In this document: one piece after another, positions 28,765 through 58,039 of the stretch
How the letters are laid out: each line of letters starts with the position of its first letter
Position numbering within the stretch: the stretch's first letter is position 1
DNA from: Antedon bifida
Lineage: Eukaryota > Echinodermata > Crinoidea > Comatulida > Antedonidae
Length of the DNA: 64,000 bases
Reading direction: 5' to 3'
NCBI GenBank assembly: GCA_963402885.1
Contig: OY727093.1
Coordinates: 7,575,501-7,639,500 of the forward strand
Translations under genes and position numbers: made by a program
The notes under the pieces: generated by a model
What the model saw: only the letters and a program-made list of their open reading frames with translations
What the model was told of the DNA's origin: nothing
Databases searched by the model: none

Positions 28765-28926
28765 ATGCAAATGTAACTTCTTATCGTACTTGATTGGCTT
28801 ACCGCGGTCACGTGAAGACTTTCACGGTTAATTCGGTCCAATAATCTAAAACTCTCAGATCATCAATGCCCAACAACATCTTTCTAAGCATCGTTGTATA
28901 AATATATTAGAGGAGAAATTCCTAAA
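28765..28926 (+). promoter_or_regulatory. Hox2 core promoter
   Basis: In order: POU octamer ATGCAAAT (28765-28772), inverted CCAAT box in TGATTGG (ATTGG at 28793-28797), E-box TCACGTGA (28808-28815), forward CCAAT (28838-28842) and a TATA box TATAAATA at 28897-28904. Start of transcription would then be near 28927, about 85 nt before the Hox2 ATG. NF-Y binds CCAAT and USF-type bHLH-Zip factors bind CACGTG. The same ATTGG-N10-TCACGTGA-CCAAT order occurs before Hox1. Site identities are motif-based. Confidence 0.5.
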
Positions 28927-29011
28927 ACGGAAGATTTAATCTAGCCTGATCTATCTAATCATTTTCAAACATAAACACAGGTCTTGAAAAGGTACTGAAA
29001 AAAATCTAAGC

Positions 29012-29402
29012 ATGTCTTGCGCGTTACTTGGCGATTGTAGTGACGGTGGAGGAGGAGGCGGTAGCGGGGAACCATCTGCAGGAGATGTTATCAACACTCA
29101 GGCTTCAAATCAATCAATCATGTCTTCAAGTAGGTACGTTAATAATGAATGTGTGGCAACCAGTCTAGCCTCTCACTCTACACCATCTCCGACAACAGAC
29201 TACACACCCGTGGACCCAACAACTTTCTCCTGCTCCCTCGGGTTCGCTGGCCTACCCAGGACTTGCACCAAAGTCGCAGAAGTTTCGCCGGATGAGCGTA
29301 ACAAGCCGATTGCATCCGTGAAGCTACCGGAATATCCATGGGCAAAAGAAACCCTAGGGCCTATACAAACACAATTGAACCAGACAAACAACGGGAGCAA
29401 AG
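29012..29402 (+). CDS. Hox2: Hox2 homeobox protein, exon 1
   Basis: First coding exon of the group 2 Hox transcription factor (proboscipedia orthologue). The ATG at 29012 has A at -3 and lies 115 bp after a TATA box. The 130 complete codons give an acidic, glycine-rich N-terminus (MSCALLGDCSDGGGGGG), a Ser/Thr/Pro-rich middle and, at residues 107-113, the PBC-binding hexapeptide EYPWAKE. The position after Trp is Ala; Met is usual. The exon ends after GCAAAG with donor GTAGGC, in phase 1, about 20 residues past the hexapeptide. Joined to 33258-34111, the split codon is GAG (Glu) and the whole protein is 414 residues. A later Met (residue 37) is a possible alternative start. Confidence 0.88.
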
Positions 29403-32400
29403 GTAGGCTATTCTTATTTTGACAACTTGACGTATTGATAATTAATGAAATTGTTTAAAAATCGAAAATGCTTTTAAGATAACTGAGATAGATTTGTTAT
29501 TGAATTACTAAAACCGTAATGTATTTTTGAAATCATTATTGTATTGTTGTGCATTAATAACACTTTTTTTCTTAATTTGTAATAATGTTAATATGCATCA
29601 GCGTATCATCAAAATGTTGACAAAAGAAATCTATGCAAATCTATCAAAAGTGTGCAATTGTTTGACAGATAATTTTTGCACCTAAATTGTTCAGCAATGT
29701 ATGATTTACAACACAAATATTTTCTTATCAAAGTTTTAGAACGACGTAGGCCTAACATGTGTTCCCACATAGAGACATCATTTTTATTTGCGCTATATGT
29801 AAATCTATATATTATTATTACTGTACATCGTAAAAACAATTATTAGATAATTCCTCAATGGTAAACCAACAAACAAATTAATGTTTGGGTTCGATTTTTT
29901 CCTTTTCTATTATTTACTAATCTAAAAACGTGATGATAAAATAAATATATTTTAGAATAGTTCTAATGAAAAGTATCTTATCATGTAGATTGTGAGTTGC
30001 GAATAATATATCATGGTATCGGTGTTATATAATACGTTATGCATAAATTTAACCATTGTATAGTAATTTATATAAGTACTTAGTATATTACGATAATCGC
30101 GACTTAAGTTCCTACATTTTAAATTTTCTGTTTGGTGACCAAATGGTTTTTTTTTTGGTAGGACAGAATAACCGCGATAAACACTGACTTTTACATAAAC
30201 ATTTTTCAAAATTGTTACTTACACACTAATTGGTTCATCATCTTGTCGTTTATAATCATTGTTTGTGCGACTCAACTGCCAACTTATTGTCATAAGTTGT
30301 AAAGATGATTTTACACTATGGTTATAGGTTCTTTATTATTAAAATGATACGATCGTATAGCAAATAGTATAAAGTAGTTTGTATTGCGACTTTATTTTGA
30401 AAAAGTTTAAAAAGTTTATTTTTGTATAACGAATTTGGGTATCAAACAAGTTGAGAAGTTATGTCAAAAACAGCAACTTGAAATTATAGTCCTTCGTAAT
30501 AAAAGTAATTATTTTGTTTTGCTCTGCTTTGTTTCACATTTAACATTGACTTATTCAAGTATGTTCAAAGACTATGCCTACTTGATATTATTATTGGTTA
30601 TTATATATGGTTGAATATCGCCACTGTCTTTGGTGTACATGTTCCAGGCCATATATTTCCAATAGGACTTGACTGAACTCATTTGTATACAACGTTATAT
30701 AGTACTATATTACCATAGAAATTTAGTAAACGAAATAGAAAATATTTATATTTCCTGTTGTTTACATGGTAATTTAATTTATTGTTAATATTCGCGTTAT
30801 CTTTCTATCGTGTTTATAATATGTTAGGCTAAGTAACAAAATGGCATATTAGTTATATGTGCAATTAAAATTCTGATTAATCAGTTTTTCCTAAACTTAT
30901 ATAATAATTCATTCAATAGTCTTACAATATTCGTTGAATTGAAAGCATAGAACGTTGTTTTATCTTTTGAAAAGACGATAAAAATATAATATCAAATTAA
31001 ATATTATATTATATAATCATTTTCAAAAAACGACTGATATGTGACGTATTGATAGAAGTGCATTGTGTGTCTCAAGAGATAAAATTAAAACGGAAAGAGA
31101 AATTCTATCCCGAGTCGGTTAGATCATAGTTGACAAAAGTGTTAATAGAGTCTTCGAGTGGTGGAAGCAGTAAAAGCAATATACCGCTTAGGCCTGTAGC
31201 GTTATAATCGCGTTGTTTTTGCATTTTCAATATGTTTGTAAAAAAAATATTAAGATAAATATTTCTCTTAAAAATCCAGTAACATTTCAGCTCGTTTCGT
31301 TTATTAGAATGGTCATTTGTAACGTAAAATTAAATATTTAATATAAAATAAATAAGTTAATAATAATTTCTAGACTTACCTAAATTTATAGTATTAGGTC
31401 CAAACTTGAATTGAAACGAGTGTAACTCCAAATAAAGCGACAGGATACATTGATATATTTAATCATTTTCAAGAATCTGCTCAAACTTGGTTGATCTCTT
31501 TCACTCTTTTCTAACCTCCAAGAATAATTTATGAAGACAAACTTGTTCTTCTTTTGTAACATGTTTCTTAAAAAAAACAAAAAAAATTGTTTCTTTATTG
31601 GTATGTGTTGGTGAAGGATGTTAGTCAGGATGTACCGTACCCAGAACACCTTCGTGACAAAAACATAACTTAAATTGTACCACTACTTAACGGTAGGCCT
31701 AATAGTAAAAATTCACAGTTGTAATAATTGGTCTTTATAAATGAACGGTAGTTGTACGGTATTTCATCAAATCTAAAGAAACGCATTAGGCTTTTTCTAG
31801 GCCTACGACATGCTTACTTGCGACGGGTGCGGGGACGGGTATTAAACAAACGGCGAGAATCTGAATTTACATACATATTTTGAATGTTAATTTAATTGTT
31901 TATAATTAACTTAATATCTAGGTAATCTTTTTTATAGTATTGTTCATTGTCTACTGTTAACTGTTAATCAATTTTACTTTACACAAACAATGCAATTGAT
32001 TATATCGTTGGTTAATCTGAATTTGTAAATGTTTTTCTTCGCCTAACTTATTTCATCTGCGGCTAAATTCTGTCACTTTATCAACTCAAATCGCCACCTG
32101 CAATCCGTATTATGTCATTTTTTGTCAGCTATATTTCTGTTCATTTCTTTTTGATCAAAATTGTATGAATTCCATTTCGACCACTCGTTGTCCATCATTC
32201 AACTGTCGCAGAAAACTTTATAAAGCGAATGTAATGCATTATGTGTGTAGCAAAATATTAGGTAGAATTGCATAAATACTGTATAGTTTATTTATCATTT
32301 GTGTGCGTTTTGTCATCATTTGTCAATGCATTGTTAAGTTTCTTTATCCTTATGTTAATATTGATATTGTTTATACAATTTTTACCAATCCATCACTCAA

Positions 32401-33257
32401 TGAGCAAAGCATATTCCTTTTTAATGCTAATTTTCCTTCACAGTAGATGATAAAGCCGATCGGTAATGTAATTTAAAGTTTGCGTATGAATTTAACATTT
32501 AAAAATTACGTAGGAAAAAAAACAATGCGGTGAAATTTGAAAAGCGCACACGTAGTCGGGTCTTGGTTTTCCATAGAGTTGTTGAGACGTTCATTGTTAA
32601 TCACGACAATAGCTCGTCAATTAGTATATTAATGAGTTTATAACTGATCGAAGTAAAAACAGCTAAATAAAGACTTGACAAATTGCGAGAATATAATTTT
32701 AATTCTTAGCACGCAATACGTATGGGTAAAATTATCGGGCAAATAAAGTTGTATCTATTACAATGCGTAGGCTAGACACACTGTTCCCGGTGTAGGTCTA
32801 ACTACAGTACGGGCTGCTGTAGGAAAAAGTTACCCTGGTATATGTGTAACTGGGGTGTCATAACAAATCAACAACCGGTGAATAATTGAAAGAAAGGCAC
32901 ACAAGAGCAGTCTAAAAATCTAAAAATAATTATTTATATTGATTCTAATAATGGATTATTAATATAGTTATTGCTATTATTTTATCTTGGAATATACCAG
33001 GCTCATTCGATCCACCTCAGTGTTAGGAAAACATAATTTACATGTACTTTCAAATTGTTTTCTTCTACATTTGAATGTAATAGATAATTAAATGGTAAAC
33101 TAATATTATTATTACAATTTTTTGTAGTGCGCCCTCATAGTTAAATAAAGTTTTTGTATTGTTTATTCAACTTTTGTATTGATTGATTGATCACCTTATT
33201 TCAGAATAACAAAATTCCATGTATTATATAAAACAAACTGAATTCTCTTTTTTTTAG
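29403..33257 (+). other. Hox2 intron (3,855 bp)
   Basis: Bounded by a GTAGGC donor and a CTCTTTTTTTTAG acceptor, both in phase 1. AT-rich, with no internal exon or transposon recognised. A repeated TGATTGAT site (33180-33193) is near the 3' end, and a few TAGGCCTA palindromes lie inside. Small chance frames are present. Confidence 0.85.
33180..33193 (+). promoter_or_regulatory. Overlapping TGATTGAT sites near the Hox2 acceptor
   Basis: TGATTGATTGATCA contains two overlapping TGATNNAT-type sequences, the bipartite Pbx-Hox consensus used in anterior Hox autoregulation, 65 bp before exon 2. In such AT-rich DNA this may be chance, and it also overlaps the area where the branch point would be. 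Confidence 0.25.
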
Positions 33258-34111
33258 AGAGTACGAAAGGTGAACCACCAAGACGAGCAAGGACTGCATT
33301 TACCACCACCCAATTGCTTGAACTAGAGAAAGAATTTCATTACAACAAATACCTATGCCGACCAAGAAGAATTGAAATCGCAGCCATGTTGGAGCTAACA
33401 GAACGTCAGGTAAAAGTTTGGTTTCAAAACAGGAGAATGAAGCAGAAACGCGTCGCGCTAAAACAGGCGGCCAAGAAACGGTCGCAGAAAATCCACGCTG
33501 GAGACACGGGTTCACATTTGGATCATTTGAATACAGACGCTACGGCACTTAGTAACTGTTCAATGAAATTAGAAAACTCTTATAAATCCTGCGTGGTAAG
33601 CAGGTCTGATTGCTGTATAGGAATGCCGGACTACCAAAGAGAAAGTGAACATTGCATTGAAAAGGTAGCTAATAATATTCAAAATGGTTACCATGGGCAG
33701 CCGCACTCAGGGCAGACGTGGTATGATTCCGCCGTACCGGTATCGGACAACTCAATACAACAAAATTCAAACAGAGTTTGTCAAATTCCTGCTTCTGCAG
33801 ACTCTATTTCTCAAGTAAGACGACCTATTTTTGGTGCTAATTCTCATTGCATCTACAGCAACACGTCTGCGCCGACGGACGAGAATTCAGCATGTCGTAT
33901 GGCGTCATCGATTCCGAATTTACCGGCAAATTATCAAAGCTTTCCCACTAATTGCAATTTCCCGACAAAATATGTTACCGATTCATTTATGAGTCTTAAA
34001 CCAGGAAAGAAATCAACATGGGCAGGACACTTTCCAGAACAAATGCTAGGCCATCAAGGAGCGCAGCAAATGGTGTTCCAGTCGGCGGTGTTTCCGCAAA
34101 CATTCACTTAG
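33258..34111 (+). CDS. Hox2: Hox2 homeobox protein, homeodomain exon
   Basis: Second exon of Hox2. The acceptor AG at 33256-33257 supplies the last two bases of a split Glu codon; STKGEPPRR then leads into the homeodomain at 33278-33457 (protein residues 138-197): [75 protein letters not shown] and [13 protein letters not shown] are diagnostic of group 2 (proboscipedia/HOX2). W48, Q50, N51 and R53 are intact. A 217-residue C-terminal tail, rich in Ser, Asn and Gln with basic residues right after the homeodomain ([10 protein letters not shown]), ends VFPQTFT. A sequence-specific nuclear factor for anterior patterning, acting with PBC cofactors. Confidence 0.95.
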
Positions 34112-34565
34112 ATCCACAGCCTCGGCGGTACTGGCACCCGATGAAGTGTTAAGTGCCGTATGTGATACCGTACCGATGTTTAAAAAGTTTGTAATTAAAA
34201 GTGTTAACAAATTGTGTAAGCTATCGTAATTGTCACAGCATTATAATCATTGTTTCTTTATAATTAATGATTGTATTGTAAAGAAACAAACAAATTATGT
34301 TTAATTTTCTTAATCATTCGAATATTCATTCTGATTTATTATTTGACTTTGACAACCACCCTTTTTTCAGGTGTTATTTAGATGTAATTTCTATAGATAA
34401 GATATACAATACTACATTAAAAAGTATTTTTCACTCAAGACTGCACTCACACCACACACACCAATTCGTGTACGGATGTGTTTATTCTGTGCATAGGCCT
34501 AAACGCTTAATATGTGTGTAAATTAATTGTAAATATATACTTAATAAACTATGGAGGGTCTGATA
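34112..34565 (+). other. Hox2 candidate 3' UTR
   Basis: An AATAAA at 34543-34548 in TTAATAAACTATGG, followed by a GT-rich GGAGGGTCTG, would give a 3' UTR of about 450 nt. No better signal lies closer to the stop, but the region is AT-rich and the call is weak. Confidence 0.3.
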
Positions 34566-35675
34566 TTTTATGCTTAATAATAATCATCATATCGTGATTC
34601 AAAGGTTTCACATTCTATGATAGATTATGTGGAAGAATCACATTTTTCATATTAAGATTCCAAATTAAAAACTCCCTTTTCATTTCTACTGGGAAAACAG
34701 ATTTTCCTAACCAATTATGTAGACAGAGGGAAAAGTCTCTCTAATAGATTTTCGCAAATAACCTCCTGGGTCAATTCTGAAGCCTCTGGGATTCAACACA
34801 AAATCCTTACCTCGTCAACTTTGTGTAGAGTTCGAGATACGAGTTCTTACAACTGATTATGTATCTTCTTATCGTGAAGACAATGCTTTATTAGCTGAAT
34901 GATGAAACGCACACTTGGGAATGTAGGTTATTAAAAACGCATTTTTTTTTCAATTGCGATTCAATGTCACAGGTCCAGTGAGCTACTCAAAAGTTGTGTT
35001 CATGCCTATTATATAATCAGTTTATTTAAAACCGGCCAGTGTTGTTTAGAATAAAAATGTGGCACGTTATTGTATTACCACTAAAAGAGTACTGCACATT
35101 AAGAATACACTTTTAGGCCCAACAAAGTGTCCATTATGGGTGCCTGGAATGGGGTTTGGCCGTGTAGTGTTGTATATTCACCCTCGTTCGTTTCAAGTGT
35201 CTCCTTGGAAGGAGTGCCTTCGGATAGATCTGTTTTGAGGTATTATAATAAGTACAGCACATTCGTGTACAATTTTCAATAAAGTTTTAGCAGCAATAAT
35301 TATATGTATAGTTCACACGTGATCGCAATCGAGAACTAAGCAACTGCTTAGAAGGGTATTCTGTCCGAGTTCTGATTATTTAATCTTTGATTTTATATTT
35401 TTTACATAAGTTTTATACATTATTATATGTAATTATAATTATTATGTTGATTTTTATACATGTTTGACCAATCGATTGCTCAACGATCAAGAAACGTGCC
35501 AGAGGGCTTGGCGATGCGCTTCGAAAAAATGTGCATGGATTGTGGATTAAATAGATTAAATATAAATGAGAATGGATTACCGTTAATCCCTAACTTCAAT
35601 GATACAAACATTTCGCAAATCACTTTTAATAGTCTTTTACTCGTATTTAATAATAACAAATTCCCTTTTCTATGT
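34566..35675. other. Intergenic DNA 3' of Hox2
   Basis: Unique-looking sequence with somewhat higher GC at about 34.7-34.85 and 35.1-35.25 kb. An open frame at 35460-35696 has no recognised domain and runs into the tandem repeat. A CACGTG E-box lies near 35315. No gene supported. Confidence 0.4.
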
Positions 35676-35795
35676 AATACGGGGATAAAGCGATGACGTA
35701 AAAATTTACGTCGACAATTACAGGGATTCAGTGACGTTATAAAAACTTACGTCACAAATTACGAGGATCAAGCGACATTATAAACGTCATAATTT
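35676..35795. repeat. Three-unit ~41-bp tandem repeat rich in TACGTC
   Basis: Units begin at 35676 (AATACGGGGATAAAGCGATG), 35716 (AATTACAGGGATTCAGTGAC) and 35757 (AATTACGAGGATCAAGCGAC). Each carries an ACGTCA/TGACGT-like half-site, and the first has an inverted GTAAAAATTTAC. The units are diverged. The repeat lies 1.6 kb beyond the Hox2 stop. Confidence 0.6.
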
Positions 35796-35954
35796 TAAAT
35801 TATTCATTTCCAAAATTTCACTCATTTTAATTTATTAATTATTAAGTTCATGATATTTACAATGTTTCCACAATGTGCAATAGAACGACTGTGGTGACGA
35901 TTAAAACGTGTTACATTTATTTTATAGGTTATGTGCAATTTTAAATATATTTAC

Positions 35955-36130
35955 TTTCTAATGTAATGTTGTTGTTGTATAGCGCTTATACAATCAAAAG
36001 ATTGTCCCAAAGCGCTGAGAGAAAAAACAGAAATAAATTACAAAGAAAAAAGATGGGTTTTTAAGAGTGTTTTGAAAACTATGATAGAGGATGCATTTTT
36101 AATAAGATCTTTTTAAAATTCTGAGGCATC
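35955..36130. repeat. Dispersed-repeat fragment with AGCGCTT hairpin
   Basis: AGCGCTTATACAATC (from 35981) and GATTGTCCCAAAGCGCT (to 36016) form an imperfect hairpin, followed by an A-rich stretch and GATGGGTTTTTAAGAGTGTTT. This wording resembles a repeat end that I have seen widely in marine invertebrate genomes. The assignment rests on recall and the visible hairpin; family not identified. Confidence 0.4.
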
Positions 36131-37992
36131 TTCCCTTATTTTTTGATAAAATATTATTTTACACTATAGTAAACTGATTAATGTTAATATTCCGTATAGG
36201 CTAATATGATTGGTGGTCACTTTTGTTTTAAGTCGGTGTACTTTGTAATCAAAACATAAGGAAGATTACAGCGATAAAGTAGGCCTATTTTTGTTACAAT
36301 TTAGTATATTATAAAAAAAAATAAAAAAATGCTTTTGGGAATTATGTATCCTTGAAATTCAACAAGGAATTCAATCAGCATAAGGTTTCATGAAAGAAAC
36401 GCTTTTCAACTTAATTTATATGAAAGAATTCGCGATGAGATCGTTTTCAATTCTTTCAATTTCACAAAGTTAATCAGCGTTTCTGATTTATGCATCTTTT
36501 CATAATGACTTATTATTAATATTATTATTAATATTATTAAACTTCAAAATCCGCTAAACCCTACACAGAAGCGGGCTCTCGATGTACCGATAATTACAAA
36601 AATGTAAATTTTTATAATTTAAATATCTGTTTGCGTAATGTTTAGGAATAATTATTGGAAGATACACTCTGTGTTCTTTATTTAATTACATGTATAATGT
36701 TCCCACGAAGGTCTTAACTTATGGTTATTTCAATGTATATAACTCAGATTTTACTGGTTAATGTAAAATCGCGTATCACGGCTCTTACGTTTTTAATAAT
36801 TTGTACATCATTTTTTCAGTGTATGTAAATAAAGTAATGTACAGTATCTACAACAGGGTACGTGTAAATAATGTGCAATTTAATATTTTGTATATAATTA
36901 TTATTATTGTAATATTGATAGTAGACCTATTGAAACACGTAGGCAACACTCTGAACTGAGTTCATTATATATTATAATTATGTATTTCCATGTATTTTTT
37001 TTTGTCTTATGAATATCATTATAAAAACAGGGTAAGCGCTATCTCTTGCTGTAATTGTAAGTTATCATGCAATATCATTTAAGTAATAAACATGTTTCAA
37101 GAAAAGATTTAGTTTTATTTGTTCTTAACATCTTTGAGTGATATTTAAAATGACGATTACCCTCTGAATTTAATAAATTGCCTTATTGTTTTCAGAGATC
37201 TATGTGAGAAAAGCATTGTAATGTATGCAAATAAGGTGTACAACGTGGGTTTATCACTATTTCGGTGATATTTATAAAAAGATAGTAACAGAACATAGGA
37301 CGGTGATGATGACGTTAAAGATAACGACGAATAATAATGATTCATGATAATGATGACGATGATGATAATGACGGTGATGCGTCGATGTCAATGATAGTGT
37401 TCCTGGGTAACGATTGTGATAAGGATTATGATGATGCGAAGACGAAATCAACGTCACCTTTAATCGAAACGTCACAAGTATACAGCGCATGCGCGTACAG
37501 TATAATTATATTGAGAAGAACATGATTTTTGACTCTATGAAATACTTCTGTTTTCTTTTGCTTTGTGTAATGTTCTTTAACGACTGCAGGTTGATGAGGC
37601 TTACAAACACCATAGCCTTGGACGCAATCTTAAATGTAGCATTTCCCGGTTTTAACTTCGTATTGTTAATAATAACAATATTAAATCTGCCACAATAGGG
37701 CAATGGCCGGGTAAAGGTTTATTAATATGACTTAACAAAACACATGATTGCACTGAAGGCAACTCATTTAAGCTATCTCCAATTATATATAAATGTAACG
37801 TTGATGTTTATTTGTTACGAGGATTTGTTTTATTGTAATACCTATAGCCGTTTCCGATAGCTCAGCATTAATCTTGATTGTTAGCTTTTATTTTGATGTT
37901 TGCCTATTTTATATCTCGATTTGCGATAATTTTTAACTGGAACAGAAAGCTTAACACAGCAAAATATATCTGAAATAAATAATGATAAGATT
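36131..37992. other. Intergenic DNA with a GAT-rich simple tract
   Basis: AT-rich; no gene supported. An imperfect GAT/GAC tract at about 37298-37390 generates opposing D/M/I-rich and H/S-rich frames that are not genes. The more GC-balanced piece near 37.4-37.7 kb has no recognised domain. Confidence 0.5.
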
Positions 37993-38556
37993 GAAGTAAA
38001 CCACTGAGAGTGAAGGAAAATTGCGGGAGTGAAGTAAACCACTGAGAGTGAAGAAGTTGCGGGAGTGAAGACAACCACTGAAAATTGCGGGAGTGAAATA
38101 AACGACTGAAAATGAAGAAAAGTTGCGAGAGTGATGTAAACCACTGAGAGTGAAGAAAAGTTGCGGGAGTAAAATAAACTACTGAAAATTGAATTAAACC
38201 ACTGAGAGTGAAGAAAAGTTGCGGGAGTGAAGTAAACCACCGAGAGTGAAGACAAGTTGCGGGAGTGACGTAAACCACTAAGAGTGAAGACAAGTTGCGG
38301 GAGTGACGTAAACCACTAAGAGTGAAGACAAGTTGCGGGAGTGAAGAAAACCACTGAGAGTGAAGAAAGTTGCGAGTAGAGTGAAGTAAACCACCGAAAG
38401 TGAAGTAAACCACCGAGAGTGAAGAAAAGTTGCGAGAGTGAATACAAGTTGCGGGAGTGAAGTAAACCACCGAGAGTGAAGAACAGTTGCAAGAGTGAAG
38501 AAAAGTTGCGATAGTGAAGTAAACCACCGAGAGTGAAGAAAAGTTGCGAGAGTCCT
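37993..38556. repeat. 38-bp minisatellite array
   Basis: About 14 or more units of roughly 38 bp, reading GAAGTAAACCACTGAGAGTG followed by AAGAAAAGTTGCGGGAGT, with small indels and truncated units and variants at CTG/CCG and GGG/AGA. The minus strand gives overlapping Phe/Ser/His-rich frames (HSRWFTSLPQL and similar) in all three phases, because the period is not a multiple of 3 and the unit lacks minus-strand stops. They are not genes. Confidence 0.92.
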
Positions 38557-41500
38557 CACAACCGATATGTCTAAAACAAACAAAAACGTAGGCCTATATA
38601 TCCAATATTAAAAAGCATCTAAGAAACAGATTAATGCAAAATAAAGACAATGGAAGCCATCCGATAATTTCCTCAATATATGATATAAATAAACGTAAAT
38701 TATGAAATTCTGATGACTTTAATTAAACTAATACATGCTTTCTCTATAGTAACATCATTAGCAAAGGAAAAAAATGTTGAGTCACCTTAGGACAGGTGCT
38801 GTTGAACTTATTAACTACAATGGAAGGATTTGTAATATTGTTACATGTTGTATGTATATAATACTGCATAAAATCAGATGGCTTATATATTACATGGACT
38901 TTAGTTTGATAGAATAACGGAATTGTTGATTTCAATGTCGATACAATTCAACTGCTTAACCATGGAAAGAGAAAGAAATTTAACAGTGTGTATTGTTATG
39001 TATAATTATTTTGAATAAACTTAGAAAGTTTAACTTATGTTGCTATGTAATATGCTATAATTATAACGTTACCAGTGTGGAACACGGTATACTATCATGA
39101 AGTAATGAAAAATAATATAAACAGTAAGCCTATTGGAAATATTTCAATTGGTGGAGGTTTGGATCGCACTATTCAATTACTCACGTCTTTCGAATGAGAC
39201 GTTAAGTTGGTTCCGTAGGCATACTGGATGTTCATTTCCAATTGGTGCGTAATCCAGATCAACATAAATAAAACTTTGCAAAAATTGCTATTAATTTTCT
39301 TAATCAAAGACCCTAAAGAAAGACGAGCTATGGGTATTTAATGTACATTATTATTATTATTTTTCATTAGACCTATGTTGTTTTATTAACAATCTTGTGA
39401 GTGACACTAGATTCAGAAAAATGCATTTCCAAGCCTGATAAGGTATTCTTTGATTAATCTTGATCAAGCTTAGCTTGAAACTTTTCATAATGTACGCGGG
39501 CCTACGATGAGAATATCTAATGTTGTTAGGCCTAGAGTCCCGAGGGACCGGGTAGCATTAAAAGACAAAGGGTAACTGTCGGCATTCGAACGAATATTGC
39601 GCCCGTCAACAAATTTGCCGCTTGGCTGCGCATTCAGTGTTGCTGTTTGTCGGATGGGGACACGAAGCAAATAATTTAAAATGGAAATAGTAGCTGTAAA
39701 AAGGAATAATTGGCCATTAGAACGTAGAATACAGTCTCAACAAACACGATCATCTTTTCAGCATTTGACAAGTGATAATGTGATTCAAATATTGCAATTT
39801 TATATGAAATGTATTTAGATTTTTATGAGTTGTTTGCTCTTAAGAAAACATTTACTCGGATTAAACAGAAAGCCAAGCAATTTAATATTTTAAATTGCTT
39901 ATAAATATGGAATAAAGTTAACTGAAAAAATGCAGAAATATGTAATTTTACTAGAAAACACCATTATTTTGAAATATATTGCTATTTGACAAAAATATTT
40001 GCTGATTAAAAGGAATAAAGGGGAAACAAATTATTCATACTTTGAAAAATGTATTATTACTGTAATAATAATAGTGATAATAATAATTTTTGTTATAACA
40101 CAGTAATAATTATTCTTTTAAAAGCCTTCATTAATGATTTATTCTTAATATCTGGCTTAACGTTAGGATCATATAACTTTCCAGAAACTGGGTTTCTCTA
40201 CAGAATGAATGACGGTATGCATGCATAGTAGTTTGTCAACTATGTCTCTACAGAAGTTATGGTTCTCCTGCATTATATCCCTCAGTTAAGTTGAATATTA
40301 CCAATAAATTTTCATTTTAATATAATTTTTAATACTGTAATTCGTTTTCCGGTTTTTTTTTGTACAGGATCATATTGATTGTTTAACTTATAACAATGTT
40401 GTGTAAATAAAGATAACTCACTAAACGTTCTTTACATTTTGATTGAGATTTATCCCATGGGGAAATCGAGATCAATCATAAACCTCATAAAACTGAAATA
40501 TATGGAGCATGTAAAATAATGTTAAAAATAGACCTTGACCATGGACAACGACAATACAAGTGACTACATTTTATTAGTATCATGACCTGTAATTATAGTT
40601 TAATTGCACACAATATTTTGTTTAATGAACGTTTTAAACATGTTATCCAACACAACCGAGCAAGCTGAAACGCGTAAAGCGTCCTTGGTGGAGACACGGC
40701 GACGCGATCAGCGACGAAGCGTCAAAACGCGTTCTCGAAATAAAAGTCGTCCTCTTAAAACTTTCTTTCAACTTTTGTAAAACGCTCTCTTTTCTGCAAA
40801 TGTGGTCAACAGTGATGAGAACAGAATGCAAATGGTTTATATGTCGTTCTCTTTATTCTTCTCATTCAGCAGGCCCATCAATTAGTCAGAGTTATACACA
40901 CACTAGTTCCATACTCGATTAGGCAGGCGAGCAATGTACACCAAGTGATAACAAATAGACAGAAACAGGAAAACGTCTCAATTTGAAGAACTGAAAGTAG
41001 CACATTCTAACATACAAAAGAATTTTCTCATCAATCTGTGGTGGAAATGATCGGTAGTTTCCGGTATTTTTATGTCTTCTTTCATTTGTTTTGCCTAAAG
41101 TTTTTGTTTGCTATTTTCTAATTCATCATTCGAGATACGAAGATAGTATGTCACCGGTTAAACAATATCGCAATAGCTTTCGATTAATTTGTATTTGAGT
41201 ATCGCCAGTTCATGACTTGGTCTAATATTGTTCTCTATTTTAAATTCAGGCCACGGCCAGTTGCATGTCTTTATCAACGGTGGTTACGGTCTGTCTGTTA
41301 CGCCAGTTTGTCGCCACCATGGAACTGACTTCGATCGTGGAGGAATTTAATGTCTCTATACATATAGTATTTTAAATGTTCAACAATTGGGAATGTTGTA
41401 TATAGCATTTACATGACTCATTTTTTTAAATATTTATTACTAAAACACAACGTAAAAAAACTACCCGTAATTGTATCACGAATGTTTTATATAGCTAAGA

Positions 41501-44500
41501 TTTCAAAATACTGAAACAATCCTGCGAAATTTTTGAAAATAGCGCTGTCAATTCAAAATAGAACATAAAACAAAAACCTGCGATACTGCAGCCAAGGCAG
41601 TCGGTTAAATAACTATATAATAATTTAGAATGACAGTCAAATCCGGGTAATTAGTCTCTGGGCTATTGGACATTATTTGAAAACGATTTGTTATTTGTCA
41701 ATTACGTTTAATTAGTGGCAATTGTCCATTTAGCACTTCATTACGGCTATTACTCACTATACTATGTCATTGGTCTAATTGTATTAGATAAGCAACTTAA
41801 CTTGATGACTTATAAGCGCACTTAAAGATCAGAAATTGATGTTCAAGATTATAATTCGAGTTTAATCTACTCTCGTTTACCAATGCCATATAAAACCTGA
41901 TCTGTTAGTCTACGGTAATAATCCTTACAAATTACGTTTACACAACTCAGCGCTATTCTCAGGCTTTTAAAGCTAATCAACACTAACATCATTACGCCGC
42001 CTAATAGTTATTTGAATAGGTTTAAATTGTGCGAGTTTGATTTGTCTGGACAAATCATGTATTTAATTTATCTCGTCCCCACCTCCGAGTGTGATTCAAT
42101 AAATTAAACAAGAAAGTGGAGCGCGGTTTTCGTTAGCGCGAGATACTTCGGATGATCGAGCGGTCAACTAAAATCGCGCGTTAATCCGCAGACGATACGC
42201 AACTGATGGATGAGATGATTTAAATGGAAGATTTAACATCTTCTTGTCACCAAACACTTCACACGATGCTCAAACTGTATGATAGTGTACATTTAAGGAA
42301 TCTAATCTTATCCTTTTATTGTTTTAAACGAAAACACTGTTTCACCTTTTACCAGAAAGAAACACGAATACGATTAGCAAGTGTAAAATATATTCTATAA
42401 CTTAATCATGTAAAGTGCATGTGTTTAAATATAGGCATATTGTTTGAATTAGAAGAACATCTTTCAACTAACCTGTAACTTGATTATTTTATATTGAAGA
42501 CGTACAGTACCATGAGGATAAAGTATTACAATATCACGTTTGAGACTGCAGAACAAATATTTCGTTGTAGGACTATCTTTATATTATACAAAATATGAAA
42601 AAAATGTATAATTTATTAAATCTGCTAAAACCAAATGTTTGCTTTATAAAGTGGAGATCAATACTACGGTATAATGAAAACATTTATATTAAATCGTTTC
42701 ATTTGAAATGTACGTAGTGGTATAAAAAGACTACTGTCTTATAAAATAAGACTTCCGAAATGGTTTCATAGCCACAGGCGCTAGTGCACTCAGACAGCCC
42801 GACAGGAAAGCTAAATTCGAAAATCCATCCATCAAGCGAGCCTAACAAAGGCAAGCGGACATAGTTAAGAACGTGCTTTATACCGCCTATGAAAACGTAC
42901 AATTATGGCTGATAGACCATTTGAATGTACAAACCGATTGTGAAATTTGTAGGATCAAACAAATCAATGTGTATTAGCGGTCGGCATTAAGCAACTGCTA
43001 TATCGTTTATTGAGTTAAAAAAAACCACAGCGCGAATGTTTATTTACGCACTGTTCTTCCCGGTTTAGCTGATCATAATTCCTGCATTGTTAAGTTAACA
43101 TACTGTTTGCTTTGCTCATCACGAGTTGTTTTCTTCTCCCTTTGTTGTTTATTGAATTAATACAAACATTGAACGTTTGTCGTAAGTAAACGAGCCACGG
43201 GCTACGGACAACTCGAGAAAACACCTTCCTTGAAGTTCAAGCCGATAAGTTCGTTATTATGTAATTAAACCTACATTTTAGACGCAGCCATACATGTTAA
43301 TTTACACAAAACAATATTGGATTCATCATATTTTATGTACGTCAGGAAATGAATAGATAATTTATAAACTAAAAGAGAGTCTGCTTGAACAAATTTGTTA
43401 ATAGTTATGATATAAAACAGGATGAACTAAACACAGACTTACGCAGCTGCGGGTAACAGGCCAAAAAAAGAGAATGAGACTTAATGAACAGAAACTTATA
43501 CATTTTAAAACATTCAAGAGCAAAATAAAATAATCAGTTATAATTCGGTGATACATGTTTGCGGGGAGGCTGCACACAAAAAAAAAATCGCAATCGATGT
43601 TCCTAACACAACCTTACAATTATGGACCGCCGCGCCACCGCGCTGTCGACAGTGCACCACCAAAAGAATCATGAGAGTTACATGTAATGGTGCTAATCAA
43701 TGAAAACATTATACTTAAATGACTTACAGTATTTGCTTCAATATAGTTAGACTGAATCTTAAAAACTATGTATCAATATGAAGGCGTAATCTGTGTTCCT
43801 TATTTATAGAATTTTAAATCATAAAATGATTATGAAATTGAAAACGGCCAGCTGAATAAGTGACTGTGCCACCATAAAAGTAAACCGAGACCTTAATTCA
43901 TAACTATACCACTGAATCTACTGAACAAGTGTAACGATACACGCTCAATTTCATATTTACTTATCTTTGTAATTACACTAACGGTAATGATGAGTGAATT
44001 AGGTAAGTGTATAATATTTATGCTTATTCGTCATTTTGTTTGGATCTTTGTGTTGTTCAGTGAATAGAGTTGGTGCTGTGTTTAATCACCGTATCCACAA
44101 GTATATCTTATTACGTGTTAGAACTTGATGGTGCGACGCAGAAGTTCATCAATTTTATAATAAGAATTTCGTTGGCAAATGAAGGAATTCCACCTCAGCT
44201 TGCAGCATAAACAAATTTAAAATACACATTGTAAGATATACTTTAATATATACTCCTAATAGTAACCATAGACTGGTTCAATAACTGTTATTTAATTCAA
44301 CTAATATAGGCCTAGGCCTATAACATGTACTTTACTGTACAATAATTACCCGGTTGTACCACTATAACTCCGATGGATGAATATCTAAACTTTAAAAGGG
44401 AAGGGGAAACAAAATTCAAAGACGGAGAATTACTTATTGGAGTATATTCAGTCACTTTGATTTTTGTTTAGATTTGATATTCTTTAAAACATGTTTTCTA

Positions 44501-44572
44501 TATTTTTGTTCTAAATCTTTTTCTTTTCTAAAAGCCGATTAAAAAATTAAATAAATCTCGAACATATACTGC
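38557..44572. other. Hox2-Hox1 intergenic DNA, no gene supported
   Basis: Unique, AT-rich sequence with no domain-bearing ORF. CpG-rich pockets stand out at 40.65-40.74 kb (several ACGCG words) and 42.11-42.20 kb (GAGCGCGG, GCGCGAG, AATCGCGCGTTAA). The stretch 41.6-42.1 kb is dense in TAATTA/TTAAT homeodomain cores and lacks repeats, which makes it the best enhancer candidate here by appearance only. A GCCACCATGG start context near 41318 opens only an 18-codon frame. Confidence 0.4.
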
Positions 44573-44883
44573 TAAAGATGTATTGTCCCCCTGAAAAAAA
44601 AATTCTTTAAACATTTTTGGTTGAATATGCCATTTTTATGTCACATAATAGTTAATTATCCACTTTGCCCAAAAATTGGATGATAAAAAAAATTATTTAC
44701 CTGAAAAAATGTAATTTAAAGCAAGAAATAGTCAAATCATTGGGTTTTTGGTTGAATTTAACTATTTCTTTTGTTATTTTATATAGGTGAAAACATTATT
44801 CCTTTCATTTTTTTGTTAAAACTACAAAATAACCTATTCAATTAATCTTCATTTTTCATGTTTTGGGGGACAATACATCTTTA
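44573..44883 (+). mobile_element. MITE family B, best-preserved copy (311 bp)
   Basis: Perfect terminal inverted repeats: TAAAGATGTATTGTCCCCC on the left and GGGGGACAATACATCTTTA on the right. The interior matches the copy at 7861-8192 throughout. Non-autonomous; no transposase in the window. The length and clean ends make it the reference copy for the family here. Confidence 0.9.
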
Positions 44884-44929
44884 ACACATCTTAGTACCTC
44901 GTTGAAATTGGAGAACGAGTGAGTAAATT

Positions 44930-45035
44930 GAAGATATAGAATTTAGAACACAACGAAGGAATCGAACCGACGTCCTTGAATTCAAAGAAAAATGAAGCAA
45001 CTACCACAATGTTTGCTATATAGGTTACAATGGCC
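44930..45035 (-). mobile_element. tRNA-like SINE fragment, reverse strand
   Basis: Read in reverse, a perfect Pol III B-box GGTTCGATTCC occurs in GACGTCGGTTCGATTCCTTC, with an A-box-like TAGCAAACATTGTGGTAG about 45 nt upstream. Stems for an intact tRNA do not form convincingly, so a tRNA-derived SINE or a tRNA pseudogene is more likely. It sits about 50 bp from the family B MITE. Ends are approximate. Confidence 0.45.
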
Positions 45036-45562
45036 ATGACCGGTGCTAGATACTATTCCCCCAGGAAACTTACAACACTTACCCTTCCCTGAAAACGTCT
45101 GTTATTCATAGCTCATCACGTTCATCAAAAAGACATTAGGGGTTCTTTCGTCATGTACCGGTAAGCGACATCATTTGCAAATGAACGTAAAATAATAATG
45201 TTTAAATTACACTTGAGGTAAAGATGAAACAAGGACTCTATACAGTTTGTCTTACTCACCTATATTGCAATGAGCATGGGATATTAATCTTAGTATAATA
45301 ATTTATATTAACAAAACCTTTGATTATTTTTATTTTATTTATTTATTTTTTAATTATTTATTCTCATAATGTTGTTTCAACCCTACAGAACAGTACTTAA
45401 AAAAAAAATATTATTAAAAGTTTTTTACAAATACATTGATTGTTTAATTAATTTAAATTTAAATAATAGGCTATTATGATGCACTTGAACAGCATAAAAA
45501 TGTTTTCATAGTAAAAATATATGACTTATTTCTTACTAGCAACCATGCAACAATAATATGGT

Positions 45563-45673
45563 CGTCAGAAGGTTGGACGTCCCCACAAAACCTACATAGA
45601 TCAACTATGCGAGGACACAGAATGTAATCCGGATGAACTGCCTGCTGCCATGGACCACTGTAATGTCGTACAG
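45563..45673 (+). pseudogene. LINE reverse-transcriptase ORF C-terminal relic
   Basis: An open stretch without its own start reads RQKVGRPHKTYIDQL, then CEDTECNPDELPAAMDH. This matches the familiar C-terminus of many LINE ORF2 proteins (GRP.KTYIDQL.ED.....ELP.AM.DR..WR). The final DR..WR is lost and nothing upstream stays in frame, so it is a short dead 3' fragment. Clade not assignable. Confidence 0.6.
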
Positions 45674-46176
45674 TTTAATATATTTTAAAATAGCGTATTA
45701 TTATCATTATTAATATTAGAAAAAACACAACAACGTTATCGTATAAGTTTAATATTTTTTAAGTAGCATATAGCATCATTATTTGAAACCTATCAAAAAT
45801 GAACAGCTACTTTCACATCGAAATGTTGAGAATTGTTTTAAAGTAAAGGAATTCCTGGTAAGTAAACTTAAGTTGGTGTTGATGGCTTTTTCTTCGCTTC
45901 GTTAACGCAGTAACATGATAGATGCCGCGATTAAACATACGAGGCTATGTTCAATGTTGGTTTTATTTATTTACTTTTTGTTAGTTTTTTGTGTAATAGG
46001 CTAAGACTCCAAATTATGAGATATCGAAATACGATGGACAAGGCTAAACAATATTCTTAGCCTATAGAGGGCATGTGACGAAATTCTGTTTAATGACACA
46101 GTGTGTATAACACTAAATACAATATGTCATCAACCACAAAATAGGGTGGGCATGTATCATTTTTATATCTAGTTAA

Positions 46177-46195
46177 AGGTCAAAGTTGAAGGTCA
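46177..46195 (+). promoter_or_regulatory. Three nuclear-receptor half-sites in tandem
   Basis: AGGTCA (46177-46182), one base, AGTTGA (46184-46189), then AGGTCA (46190-46195) with no gap: a DR1-like pair overlapping a DR0-like pair, or two perfect AGGTCA at 7-nt spacing. RXR-containing receptors use direct repeats of AGKTCA. It lies about 4.7 kb upstream of Hox1. This is not the DR5 or DR2 element known from chordate Hox1 genes. Confidence 0.35.
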
Positions 46196-47170
46196 AATTT
46201 AGAGGGTTAACTGAATGTCACTATACCGCTGATTGTCTGCCGTGTACATGTGCATGTCATCATGATTTGCTTTCGTTGGTAACTTTGTTAGCAGACATGA
46301 ATAATATTTAAAGATAGTTCGTTAAATATTTGACAGAGCCTTACAAGCGGTAGAACAAAGAGTGTGTGTTAAGTGGAGTGAGTGACGCCCGACGGATTTT
46401 ACAAATAATCAAAACAAACAAAACACACTATGTATACATCCAGACCGAACCAAAAATAAATCGAATGTTAGACCTTCCATGGATTATAAATACATAACGA
46501 CATATTTAAATATGGAAATATATTTGTAAATAGATATTATGAAAGATACGACGTGGATAAAATGAAAATATGAAACTAAAAGTGGATTTCTAGTTCGAAA
46601 CAACATCTTATTTGGTATCACCCCGGAAAGCTGATGCCTACATACAATAACCAATTAAATGTTATGTTATTAGGAAATAACGCTAAGCATTAAAACAAAT
46701 ACTTAGGACAGAACATCACATTATTTGTGGAAAATAAAATTAATTTAAAAAGGGACGGTCACACAGAATCATCGAATTATGACGTAACTCGTGTACAAAC
46801 AGCAAAAAACAAATTCCATAAAAAATACTATAGAAAGAAAAAATTATGAAGGGTTAGTTGTTTCTTTAACTTTGTAAGTTTAACTTATTTTTGTTATTAT
46901 TGTTTGCTTGTTTAAAGGGATCGGCATCGGATTAAAAGTTTCAAGATGGTCACATACGATGAGGGCGGTATAATCGACACGTCTAAAACTTTAAATTGAA
47001 GTCAAATCAGAACGTTACAAATGTAGATAGTCCGCCCTCAACTTGAGGAGAAATATAAACCATATACAAACTTTAAACTATACATTTCATTACAAATACT
47101 ACACACAAATCGTACATCAAATATAATGGGTAATGATGGTAATTAAACCGACGCTTCCTATCCGTGATAA

Positions 47171-47233
47171 CGTGGGTGGGTGTGGTAGGCGATGTGGGTG
47201 GATAAAGAGGTGTGGGTGGGGTAGGATGTGTGT
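47171..47233 (+). other. G-rich tract, possible quadruplex
   Basis: Five runs of three or more G (GTGGGTGGGTGTGG ... GTGGGTGG ... GTGTGGGTGGGG) occur within about 60 nt of otherwise AT-rich DNA. The loops between the outer runs are about 15 nt, so a three-tetrad quadruplex would be long-looped. Confidence 0.3.
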
Positions 47234-48463
47234 TTCTGGTACTCAGCCAGACCCAATTAGACGCAAATTAAATTTAAGCAGATGTTATAGATACAACACA
47301 ATTCTGAAACTTAAGGTTATTAACAATTAAACAAACACTAAACAATTTGATTTCCATATCAACACCTCGGAAGGTGATTTTACGTCATTGAAACTTCAAA
47401 TTAACATTTTCTTTACATAAATGTACGTCTGTGTGTATAATTGACACCAATTCACACACAGAGACTAAACACGTCGATTGTTAGTTTAACACGGACATTT
47501 GGCAAGCCGTTTATAAGGGCCGTATTCAAGTATTTACTTAATTTTATCAAGACCTTTTGTCAATCTTAAGTTGATTTACTCACCAACATAAGAACACACA
47601 GGCTGCATAAAGCAGGCGGAAACCCTCAAAGTTATAGAGTTATAACGGCACAATGTGTTCTGTTCGAGATACAACACGTTACGATGAATCGATGCTTTTC
47701 ATAAAACTATGGCGAGAACAATCATCTGTTGCGTTGGCAAATATTGCTAGAATGACATCATTGTGATAAGGAACATTAAGAATGTGACAGAGGGCAAAAT
47801 TAGAAACAGAGGTGTGTTAGCAGAAATATTTTAAAAGATAACACGGTACATAGGTTAAATTAAGAATTATGTTTCGAACGAAACTAATCTATTAGACCAC
47901 TATTTATTCTTAATATAGACTACTAAAATCAACGTTTTAAAGATAGAATTGCAGGCATATTGAACTTATGTCGATTATCGAATTCTTAGAAAATAAAAAA
48001 TAAGTTGATTCTGGGGTCAATTTATAAATGTTGTATAAGAAAAAAAAAGTTGTTCCGAGTTGTAAATAATCACTTGTCACAGAGGCCCTGATTGAAAGAT
48101 TTAACAATGTACGAATAACATTTTAAAAACAAAATGAAGTAAAACATCTGAGCCTGGCAATGTTTTTTACTGGTTCTTGTATCAACATGTATAAAATGTG
48201 TGACTAAGAAAGGTTAATGTGAATGTGTGTAGACTGCCATACTGTTCAACAACTATATTCGTGTGCACACAGCTATGTGCACAAGTTCTGATTATGGTTA
48301 TTACTTAAATAATTATGAGTTCACAACCAACGTTATTAAAGCATATGGATAGGTCAACATGTTATTAACATTCTTAGAACCAAAGTCATTATCATCATTT
48401 AGTATCAGATATCGACAAGTATAACCGTCACTCTCGTCACCATTTATATGTATTATAATTATT

Positions 48464-48520
48464 ATCATCACTATCGTCATACGTATCATCATTATCATCA
48501 TCATCATCATTACCATCCCT
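48464..48520. repeat. ATC/TCA trinucleotide microsatellite
   Basis: An imperfect ATTATCATCA... tract with five uninterrupted TCA units near its centre. The frames it opens on both strands (H/Y-rich on +, M/I/D-rich on -) are artefacts. Confidence 0.8.
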
Positions 48521-50771
48521 TTAGTATCCTTATCTTTGTCATCACCACACTGGTAGCCTTTATCATTTTCATCACCATTGGTCAAGAAAATCAATCATAC
48601 GTTCGTATAGATTACAGTTACAAAATCATAGTAATTATCTGCATTCGTAACCAAATATTTTCCATCGATTTTCACCGTTTATTACATTAATACCTATTTT
48701 GTATTCTTTTCACGTTCAGAGTAAGGTAAATGTGTTTAGGATTGCATTATTCGACCGCTAAATCATTTAGCCTATAACAACAGGTGATATGTAAATATCA
48801 ATTATCCAGTTATCAGTTTCGGCAACTCGACTAACATCATCGTTCTTTGTTGACACACTCATGTATGGAACGCCACTAAGAATTAACAATTAAAACGCGC
48901 ATTAAAGTTGCGGTTAATTGCAATCAGAATTGTAATCATTTAAGTTTGTTTACAATTTTTGTAAAGCTATAGTATACTTTTTAACACAAAATATAGTACA
49001 ATAAATTATAATGAACGAAAGTGATGATGATAATAATAGTTTTACATTAACAATATCTGGCTTTCAACAAAGCAATGAATCCTGTCCTGAAAAGTAAAAA
49101 ATGGAAACAAACGGTGGAGCGTAATGTCGAAAAACGGCAAGAAGGGGGAAAGCACTCTAGTACGGTAAATAGGATAGTTATAGACATAAACATCTCGACC
49201 ATCGTCGTGAAAAATCATAAATTATAAGCCAAACTAAGTAAGTAAGTAATTTTTACTTTTTAAAATGATTGTTATAAATTACAAATAATGAATCACTATT
49301 ATATAATCTTAACCATCGTAATGGCAAATTACGTCAACAATATATATTGTTACTTGGTAAAGTGACTATAATAAGTTATTTTTTATGGTGGAGAACATCC
49401 TAAATATCACCACCGTCATGGCAGAATATTATACGCCAACATATAACGGTATCCACTGTTGCTAATTGTTGTTGTTTCAAGTATGGAGAATAAGTAGAGA
49501 CTTGCCATGTTTTAAGTGACTATTACAATTTGGTATTTAGAATTTAATATTTCGTTATTAATAAATTAACATACTAAATGCATATTGTTATTATGTGAAC
49601 ATTACATTTCATTAGTAAGATAATGATACATTATTCGAAGCACAAAGGGTGAATTAAAAAAGTAATGTTATTAAAATACTGGAGACTATTAATAGTTCTA
49701 AGGTTTAAATAAAATAAATTAAATTTGCTATATTAGGCATACACATGGTCCTTTAGACAAGAAATTTATGAGGGAATTAAGAATGGGTTTGAAAAGTTGG
49801 GCTATTTAAGAATATCATGTCAAAAATCTAATGAATTTCACCACTAACCTAGGCTAACAACTTAAAAACTATGGAATTTATTCGTGTTAAGTACAGATTA
49901 TTAATTAAACTCATTCATACATAATCATAATACTGTTTAATGTTTTATGATAATGCGATTATATATTCATTCATTCATTTCCTTTTTTCGGATAGTCTAT
50001 ATACAAAATATACAAAACAAAAAGATAAAGAAACCACCAGTAAATTAACAATAGCATCTTCCACAAAAACAACCCAAACTATCAATTTGCACACTACGCT
50101 GATGCCGGTTAGATTGTGGAAGTACATTGACTATGGTTATAATTACACTGTAATAATAACTGTTATGAATTCTGTTCTTAAAACTATAAATGGAGTTCCT
50201 CCAATATTCATAAAAATGCATAACAACATACAATAAAATCCATAAAAGTTATTTTTTACATCCTAAATATTTCGGTTCTTAAAGCTTTAAAAATGAGTAT
50301 TATAATATGTTTTGATAGATTTATTATCTTGTTTTTATCATATCCAATGTAAATAAGATAATTAAGAAATGAATATAAAAATACATCATCGTGAAGAAAT
50401 AATCTTCCTAACGTCAAGTACCCATTTGCAATTTTTTAATGTCGCGTCCTTCTCGAGAATTAACTCCTATAATATGTTGGGTTTTTTTCTCCTTGCGTTT
50501 TCTACGGAATTTAGTGCCTGCGCTTAAAATAGGTTCGGCATTAGTTCACGCGAAAACAATAAATAGATAAATAGCGGTAATAAAATCTATGTAAAGAATC
50601 GCATCTTAATAAAATGCGGAAGATGAGTTTATCGTCTGGTTGTGACCTAGCGTAGCGTGGAATATGTTTGTATTGATTGTAAAGGTACGGTGTGCAAGTT
50701 AAATACAGACTAGATTATTATTAAGACATTGGTAAACATTTAACACAGAGAACGCGCGTCTCAGGTGGTCT

Positions 50772-50884
50772 ATTGGTCACACGTCATCACGTGACGATAC
50801 CGAGTCGAACCAATATCGAGTTTAGAGTATTGTACGTACAGTGGTTGTCATTTCAAAGTCAGCTAAAAAGAGTCGAAGCATTTA
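50772..50884 (+). promoter_or_regulatory. Hox1 proximal promoter
   Basis: Inverted CCAAT (ATTGG, 50772-50776), 10 nt, E-box TCACGTGA (50787-50794), then forward CCAAT (50810-50814). This is the same order as before Hox2, with the same 10-nt first gap. The E-box is embedded in GTCATCACGTGACG. No good TATA is seen; a weak TAAAAAG occurs near 50864. NF-Y and USF-type binding is inferred. Confidence 0.5.
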
Positions 50885-51569
50885 ATGAGTCTCACAGTTA
50901 GTTTACAGCCTTGCTTCAGTAACTTTGCAAAGGTTGCGGATAAAGTAAGAAATTTGGTCGATTCTTACGATTTCTGTATTAGTGAACACGACAACATGTA
51001 TTCGGCGAATGCGGCGGCCACGGCTGCAACGGATCTGAGTTATCACTCTTTACCTATATCACATTCAGGTTCATATCATGGACATTATACATCAAGACAC
51101 GATTCGGACAATCGATTGATGAATTACCCCTTGCAGACAGCTGCTACGTATCCCTCGTGGAACGGGGTATCAAATAATTCGGAATGCACGTCAAACAGTC
51201 TCGCACCATCCTCGTCACCGTCAGGTTATCACAGTTATAGCAATGCAGTTTATAGTTATAATATGAGCCTAAACCATTACCATCATGATACTGAACATTC
51301 CGGGGCACAAGATTACCCCCATATTCAAAGAAATTTACACCTACAAACGGCGACATGTCCGTCTGCGTATACAAACAGGGACAGCATTTCAAACGCGCGG
51401 GAGACGGCGGTACACGCCCCAGTCTCGGATACTGACGGATCTGGCACAACACTGGGGATAGACAGTGATTCTCCCCCTCCCACCCTGACAAATCTTGATA
51501 ATCCTCAAGTCAACGGAGAGGCGGCTGTATATAGCTGGATGAAAGTGAAAAGAAATCCACCAAAAACAG
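50885..51569 (+). CDS. Hox1: Hox1 homeobox protein, exon 1 (partial)
   Basis: First exon of the group 1 Hox factor (labial orthologue). It encodes 228 codons plus one base: a Ser/Tyr/His/Asn-rich N-terminal region (SYHSLPISHSGSYHGHYTS, SGYHSYSNAVYSYNMSLNHY) and a Ser/Asp/Pro stretch before the hexapeptide VYSWMKVKRNPPKT (residues 215-228). WMKVKRNPPKT is the deuterostome Hox1 signature. The exon ends at ACAG with donor GTAAGA, in phase 1, the place where Hox1 genes are normally split. Reading on past the donor gives a meaningless tail to 51697. The ATG at 50885 has a weak context (T at -3); Met38 at 50996 has A at -3 and may be the true start. The homeodomain exon is not in the window. Confidence 0.9.
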
Positions 51570-56722: not shown

Positions 56723-57550
56723 CAGTACAACCCCTCTGTTGGGTACACCCCTGTTTAGGAGGAATGAGGAGAAATGTATTGTCACTGCCATCCATATACA
56801 GGGGACACCGCTCTTCAGGAAATATGCTGTAGAGTCCCCAATGTGTCCCCTTAAAAGGTTTTACTACAGAATATGCCTATTAACAAGGTCATTCTGCTAT
56901 AAGGTCGTCTACGACAAAACATCTCCATATTTCTATGGCGTACTCATACACTCTCTTCAAAGTGTTATTAATAATAAAAACAATTGTGTCCAGTATCATT
57001 ATCATTATACTAATATTCCACTTATATTATCATTGTTGTTAAATGAAACTGAACCAACAAATAAGCGACTTGTTTAATAACCACGATGACTTCATAATAA
57101 GCCGCTGAACATTAATCAAAATATTACGTCAAATCTGACATAAATTGTAATTATTCCACTATGAATCATAATTATAATGAAAATGAATATGAGCATTCTT
57201 AATGCTTCGATTGGCTATCAATTAACACCTTATATCTTTAGACACTCAACTGTCGAACTTTGTCCTAGCATGATTCAAGTGTCAGCGATTAAAGTATTAT
57301 TATATTTTTGTTTAATCGCCTGTAATTAAATTTCTTCATATTCAAGAGATTCAATTCAAGTGAGCAAAACAAAATGTATTTTAATTATTATAGGGTCTGA
57401 ACTTACCGTCGCAAATTAAAATGGTAGGCAATTGGTCGTGTAGTGGAATTAAAACATATATTTCCCCTCATTAATTTCATGGGAAATAAATAGTCCTCTT
57501 AATAGCGGTGACACTTGAATTGAGGTGTCCCAAAGTAAAGGGCTCTACTG
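56723..57550. mobile_element. hAT-like non-autonomous DNA transposon
   Basis: The left end CAGTACAACCCCTCTGTTGG followed by GTACACC and the right end, read in reverse, CAGTAGAGCCCTTTACTTTG followed by GGACACC form an imperfect terminal inverted repeat. CAGTA..ACC and GGGGACACC wording is typical of hAT-type MITE ends. A third, similar end (GTCCCCTTAAAAGGTTTTAC, to about 56866) lies inside, so a short element of about 145 bp may have inserted next to or within a longer one. Open frames here lack a transposase domain. No clear 8-bp target duplication flanks the long form. Confidence 0.55.
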
Positions 57551-57841
57551 TAATTTAATTATATGGATGATTAGTAATAAAAAAAATTAAAGAGTGCTTA
57601 TTTGGTAAACGATCTCATACAGTATCGTAGAGTTGTGTATTCCAGGAAAATATGAAAGGCGAGTATATGATATCATTAGACTGGTCATGAAACAGAACTG
57701 AATCGCAATTGAGATTATACCAAATTAACAACAACAATTTCATGATTATCAGAATAATAATTATTCCATAAAATAATTGTTTCTAAAATAATTTTATAAA
57801 ATACTGTGACATGCATTAGTCCTATGTACAATTAGTTTTAC
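57551..57841. other. Hox1 intron, nothing recognised
   Basis: AT-rich sequence between the hAT-like element and the duplicated modules, with no recognised features. Confidence 0.5.
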
Positions 57842-57908: not shown

Positions 57909-58039
57909 GGTCCTTTGTATACAGTAATTAGTTTCACAAATCACAACGTGCACCCATAATGTTGTATGCAGGCCACATTGTGTGTAGGCCGTTTACGCAG
58001 GTTTACTTCTTATGCTGTTATGATCAAAATGTTGTTTTT

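Follow-up and report, generated by a model that had tools for sequence, protein, structure and literature searches.

Hox regulation is mostly described through enhancers and chromatin, and to our knowledge little is known about promoter codes that are common to paralogues. The question raised by this locus is whether the promoters of two neighbouring Hox genes carry the same short code, and of what kind that code might be. The window, by which we mean the whole 64-kb stretch of DNA that was analyzed, had a GC content of 31.7% by base counts and contained the Hox-type genes Hox3-like, Hox2, and Hox1, all on the plus strand (Table 1). The paralogue names are our assignment from gene order and motifs, and for Hox1 the label is assumed from gene order and the presence of YSWMKVKRNPPKT within exon 1. 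Pfam gave zero matches for exon 1 of Hox2 and exon 1 of Hox1. The first exon of the Hox3-like gene was not found in the window and presumably lies outside it. Neither a short-motif search nor a WFxNxR-type search revealed a Hox1 homeobox in the remainder of the window (51570-64000), so intron 1 of Hox1 is apparently longer than 12 kb.

Table 1 Features of the Hox2 and Hox1 promoters and of the gene models in the window
Feature	Position	Strand	Remark
Hox3-like homeobox exon	~2.5-3.0 kb	+	Pfam PF00046, E 2.5e-24
Inverted CCAAT upstream of Hox2, likely NF-Y site	28793..28797	-	minus strand reads AGCCAATCA
E-box TCACGTGA upstream of Hox2	28808..28815	.	CACGTG core 28809-28814, 11 bp from CCAAT
Second CCAAT at Hox2	28838..28842	+	22 from octamer, poor flanks; outside common geometry
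TATAAATA, possible Hox2 TATA box, weak	28897..28904	+	58 such words on plus strand of window
Hox2 exon 1	29012..29402	+	likely ATG to splice donor, read by eye
Hox2 homeobox open frame (exon 2)	33242..34108	+	Pfam PF00046, E 1.8e-23
Inverted CCAAT upstream of Hox1, likely NF-Y site	50772..50776	-	minus strand reads GACCAATAG
E-box TCACGTGA upstream of Hox1	50787..50794	.	CACGTG core 50788-50793, 11 bp from CCAAT
Second CCAAT at Hox1	50810..50814	+	15 from octamer; outside common geometry
TCATTTC, possible Hox1 initiator, weak	50848..50854	+	110 such words on plus strand of window
Hox1 exon 1	50885..51569	+	likely ATG to splice donor, read by eye; contains YSWMKVKRNPPKT

Queried with the Hox2 or the Hox3 homeodomain, the PDB gave a large number of homeodomain matches, of which the best 60 of 129 and the best 60 of 133 left the paralogue groups unseparated, and Rfam gave 0 matches at gathering score. 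When viral contigs were scanned with the Hox2 homeodomain, 34 stretches fitted the pattern and 0 were confirmed as relatives. Two tandem arrays were also seen. Between Hox3 and Hox2 there was a minisatellite (13567-14264; 66-bp units, 10.5 copies, 90% matches), to which ten CCAAT words at steps of about 66 bp from 13645 to 14240 belong, so the CCAAT count of the window is inflated by it. Between the Hox2 homeobox exon and Hox1 there was a degenerate array (37973-38553) with nested periods of 19, 38, 57, 76, and 96 bp.

An earlier note on this DNA had proposed that Hox2 and Hox1 use one three-part promoter grammar, ATTGG-N10-TCACGTGA-CCAAT, with helical phasing kept at 10 nt. The positions it gave for the three words at each gene were exact, and so were the gaps (10 and 22 nt at Hox2, 10 and 15 nt at Hox1); the E-box is also close to the Hox ATG, 204 bp upstream of it in Hox2 and 98 bp in Hox1. 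Both CACGTG and CCAAT were thus present at both genes, and read on the minus strand the two promoters alike gave CACGTG-N11-CCAAT, with the same gap and the same orientation relative to the gene and a centre-to-centre distance of 16.5 bp (~1.6 turns). This exact arrangement was repeated at both promoters and occurred nowhere else in the 64 kb, which counts for a composite element. By the NF-Y consensus for the flanks, AGCCAATCA at Hox2 is a likely NF-Y site. The claim of a 10-nt helical phase turned out to be a counting artefact, because the 10 nt had been measured from the edge of the octamer and not from the CACGTG core. The third site was not fixed, and the downstream CCAAT was dropped as part of a common grammar, its gaps being 22 and 15 and its flanks poor (GTCCAATAA and AACCAATAT). 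So of the proposed NF-Y/USF module the E-box with its inverted CCAAT stood, fitting human geometry, while the second CCAAT and the 10-nt phase fell away. The spacer between CCAAT and E-box at Hox1 (50777-50786) contains ACGTCA, which we take to be a CRE-like half site and which is missing from the Hox2 spacer.

The geometry can be set beside published systems. In human ChIP-seq data, USF1/2 are very strongly biased towards a position 10/12 bp from CCAAT, and MITF is placed likewise, 10-12 bp away on the 5′ side of CCAAT (PMC7793273). The gap at both genes here is 11 bp, and the E-box precedes CCAAT on the 5′ side, as in the human NF-Y/USF1/2 composite. Among 2748 analyzed regions co-bound by NF-YB and USF1, CCAAT lay mostly 17 or 18 bp downstream of the E-box (PMC7046753), as compared with 16.5 bp between centres here; since the papers differ in how they measure spacing, what is matched is a range and not a single base. 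The fit to the reported E-box-5′ geometry of USF1/2 and MITF with NF-Y is the strongest argument for a composite element, and because that rule was derived independently in human data, an NF-Y/USF composite is a plausible reading of the E-box and inverted CCAAT. We therefore think it likely that Hox1 and Hox2 each have a composite proximal promoter element, CACGTG-N11-CCAAT, for NF-Y together with USF or a similar bHLH-Zip factor. The element is real and well formed at both promoters and probably functions, and from its form we infer binding and activity.

Several published observations count against the composite element. Human regions with NFY and USF are mostly distal, with a spacing counted as 21-22 bp (PMC5219757), unlike the two Hox promoters here, which belong to another animal and are known from sequence. 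Promoter clusters of NF-Y and of USF were almost mutually exclusive (PMC6238301), the USF1/2 sites in common with NF-YB were often in quiescent or Polycomb chromatin or in HERVs (PMC7793273), and NF-Y is reported to repress egl-5, a Hox gene of C. elegans (PMC11802806). The HoxB4 promoter had no narrow USF2 peak in K562, although by ChIP-qPCR both USF2 and NFYA were found at HoxB4 and HoxB7 (PMC5223348). This ChIP-qPCR counts in favour of the composite element, and so does the spacing of 10 bp cited for HOXB4 (PMC5223348), a target of NF-Y and USF1/2; HOXB4 is, however, a vertebrate gene of paralogue group 4, and its likeness to the present promoters is one of cited spacing. NF-Y is also reported to compete with YY1 at Hoxb4 (PMC3976385), a further case in which it may repress. 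HOXB7 is likewise controlled at its promoter by NF-Y and USF, together with YY1 and Sp1 (PMC5223348, PMC3976385), but its spacing is 21 bp (PMC5223348) and it is not anterior; a spacing of 9 bp was predicted for five loci (PMC5223348).

If the composite element acts as its form suggests, the inverted CCAAT would be occupied by an NF-Y trimer and the E-box, at a distance of 11 bp, by a dimer of USF or by a bHLH-Zip factor with like site preference (e.g., MITF/TFE). Across this constant gap the two proteins could make contact and thus bind cooperatively, which may open chromatin around the transcription start and give access to distal Hox enhancers. In work cited by PMC11514967, the USR domain of USF1 is reported to mediate contact with NF-Y and cooperative binding. 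In human cells the hSET1A complex is recruited to HoxB4 by USF1 (PMC3675019), and this suggests a way in which an element of this type may open chromatin and activate transcription. The start-site positions are predicted: the Hox2 module would be at about −116 if transcription begins ~30 bp past TATAAATA at 28897, and the Hox1 module at about −60 if TCATTTC at 50848 is the initiator, and both placings are weak because each word occurs many times over the 64 kb (Table 1).

The alternative that survives best says that an NF-Y/USF element of this type is generic promoter furniture, present at many genes of the genome with nothing specific to Hox. This reading is compatible with a composite element, and we put its chances slightly above even. 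The human pair occurs at many loci, non-Hox genes included (PMC7046753, PMC5223348, PMC7793273), and the sample here is two promoters. However, human NFY+USF regions show enrichment in the neighbourhood of Antennapedia-type homeobox genes (q 4.0e-4; PMC5219757), which also speaks for a composite element, and targeting by NF-Y and USF is documented for HOXB4 and HOXB7 (PMC5223348, PMC3976385).

It is also conceivable, though fairly unlikely, that a different bHLH-Zip factor (MITF/TFE or Mondo/MLX) occupies the E-box beside NF-Y, so that the input would be metabolic or lysosomal and would not come from USF. TCACGTGA presumably suits MITF/TFE. MITF shows the identical 10-12 bp geometry, but around its E-boxes it may avoid CCAAT and NF-Y, and it is USF1/2 that are close NF-Y partners (PMC7793273). 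At the Txnip promoter NF-Y is required by Mondo/MLX, and E-box-type and CCAAT sites, the latter both direct and inverted, cooperate there as the present sites may do; but the Txnip layout differs, with two ChoREs around two CCAAT boxes and Mondo/MLX in place of USF (PMC2791861).

The next alternative is chance, that is, two functionless matches selected by a search for known motifs, and here the abundance of the words had to be separated from their arrangement. TCACGTGA occurred twice in 64 kb with an expectation of 0.46 ± 0.64 from shuffles; this count alone is only mildly unusual, since 6 of 100 shuffles reached 2. Neither short word was enriched in the window (CACGTG, 7 observed and 6.95 expected; CCAAT, 140 observed and 156 expected), and 5 of the 7 CACGTG sites had no CCAAT within 80 bp, the remaining 2 being the Hox sites. 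ATTGG-N10-TCACGTGA was found at 28793 and 50772 only, and 0 of 100 shuffles reached that count of 2. CACGTG-N11-CCAAT was observed twice, as compared with a mean of 0.037 per shuffled window, and 0 of 300 dinucleotide shuffles had two; widening the gap to 10-12 bp raised the mean to 0.06 per window, again with none of 300 having two. Apart from the Hox pair, the window had no CACGTG or CAYRTG followed by CCAAT after 10-12 bp, and relaxing the E-box to any CANNTG gave one extra case, at 16488. What stands out is therefore the arrangement of the sites and not the abundance of either word.

The degree of surprise hinges on the question that is posed beforehand. In a blind test we asked how often two 300-bp upstream regions have some 8-mer and some 5-mer in common at equal spacing (the script set the Hox2 ATG at 29013, one base late). 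Random 300-bp pairs from this AT-rich window succeeded in 7656 of 20,000 cases, and when the words had to be as GC-rich as those seen, 133 of 20,000 random pairs and 208 of 20,000 shuffled-promoter pairs still did so. By plain identity the module (15/23) was the top same-strand pair, and four opposite-strand 23-mers scored equally. The significance of a blind common dyad is thus weak, which speaks for chance and, in the GC-rich case, counts against a composite element. The rule-based test, by contrast, required CACGTG followed by CCAAT at a distance of 10-12 bp, and we held it fair because the rule had been published, though it was located after the sites were seen. Shuffled promoters passed it in 2 of 20,000 cases for Hox2, 5 of 20,000 for Hox1, and 0 of 20,000 for both together, and a Markov model gave 1.4e-4 and 4.0e-4 per promoter (product ~5e-8), so the overall chance per promoter was about 1e-4 to 4e-4, a rate to be read with the caveat that real promoters differ from random sequence and that the apt base rate would be the fraction of promoters in this genome that carry the element. 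As gap and orientation fit a rule published independently of this window, and two modules appeared in none of the shuffled windows, chance is an improbable explanation.

Shared descent, in which the module would be left over from a promoter duplicated with its Hox gene or from a dispersed repeat, is very improbable: orientation and gap are identical in paralogous neighbours and NF-Y/USF pairs occur in human HERV repeats as well (PMC7793273), but the flanks are dissimilar (top blastn match of one 2-kb upstream region to the other, E 0.49) and nothing resembling a repeat copy of the module regions was seen elsewhere in the window (next-best match 22 bp, E 0.005). An origin by recent duplication or from a dispersed repeat was rejected because all blastn matches, between the upstreams and of the modules against the window, were short, and very old shared descent is compatible with them.

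The composite element is thus a known kind of module in a new place, two neighbouring animal Hox promoters. A search of titles and abstract starts, which covered few subscription journals, found among those listed no report of the module at an invertebrate Hox1 or Hox2, and this is weak evidence of absence; a paper on anterior Hox elements of chordates (PMC3227721) mentions none of NF-Y, NFY, USF, CCAAT, or E-box. The earlier note had proposed that an old module may define anterior Hox promoters in this lineage. The element was present at 2 of the 2 Hox promoters in the window (Hox1 and Hox2), so the scope of that wording is two promoters here, with HOXB4 and HOXB7 as the documented human cases (PMC5223348). 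That an ancestral Hox-promoter NF-Y/USF element with a fixed 11-bp gap predates the divergence between chordates and this lineage, and was kept at Hox1, Hox2, and vertebrate HOXB4, seems rather improbable to us. If it were true, there would be a promoter-opening code common across the Hox cluster and separate from its enhancers. If the human NF-Y/USF spacing rule also applies to Hox promoters in so distant an animal, it provides a short and exact string for searching any sequenced genome, and whether Hox promoters have an old entry code in common would then be a directly testable question.
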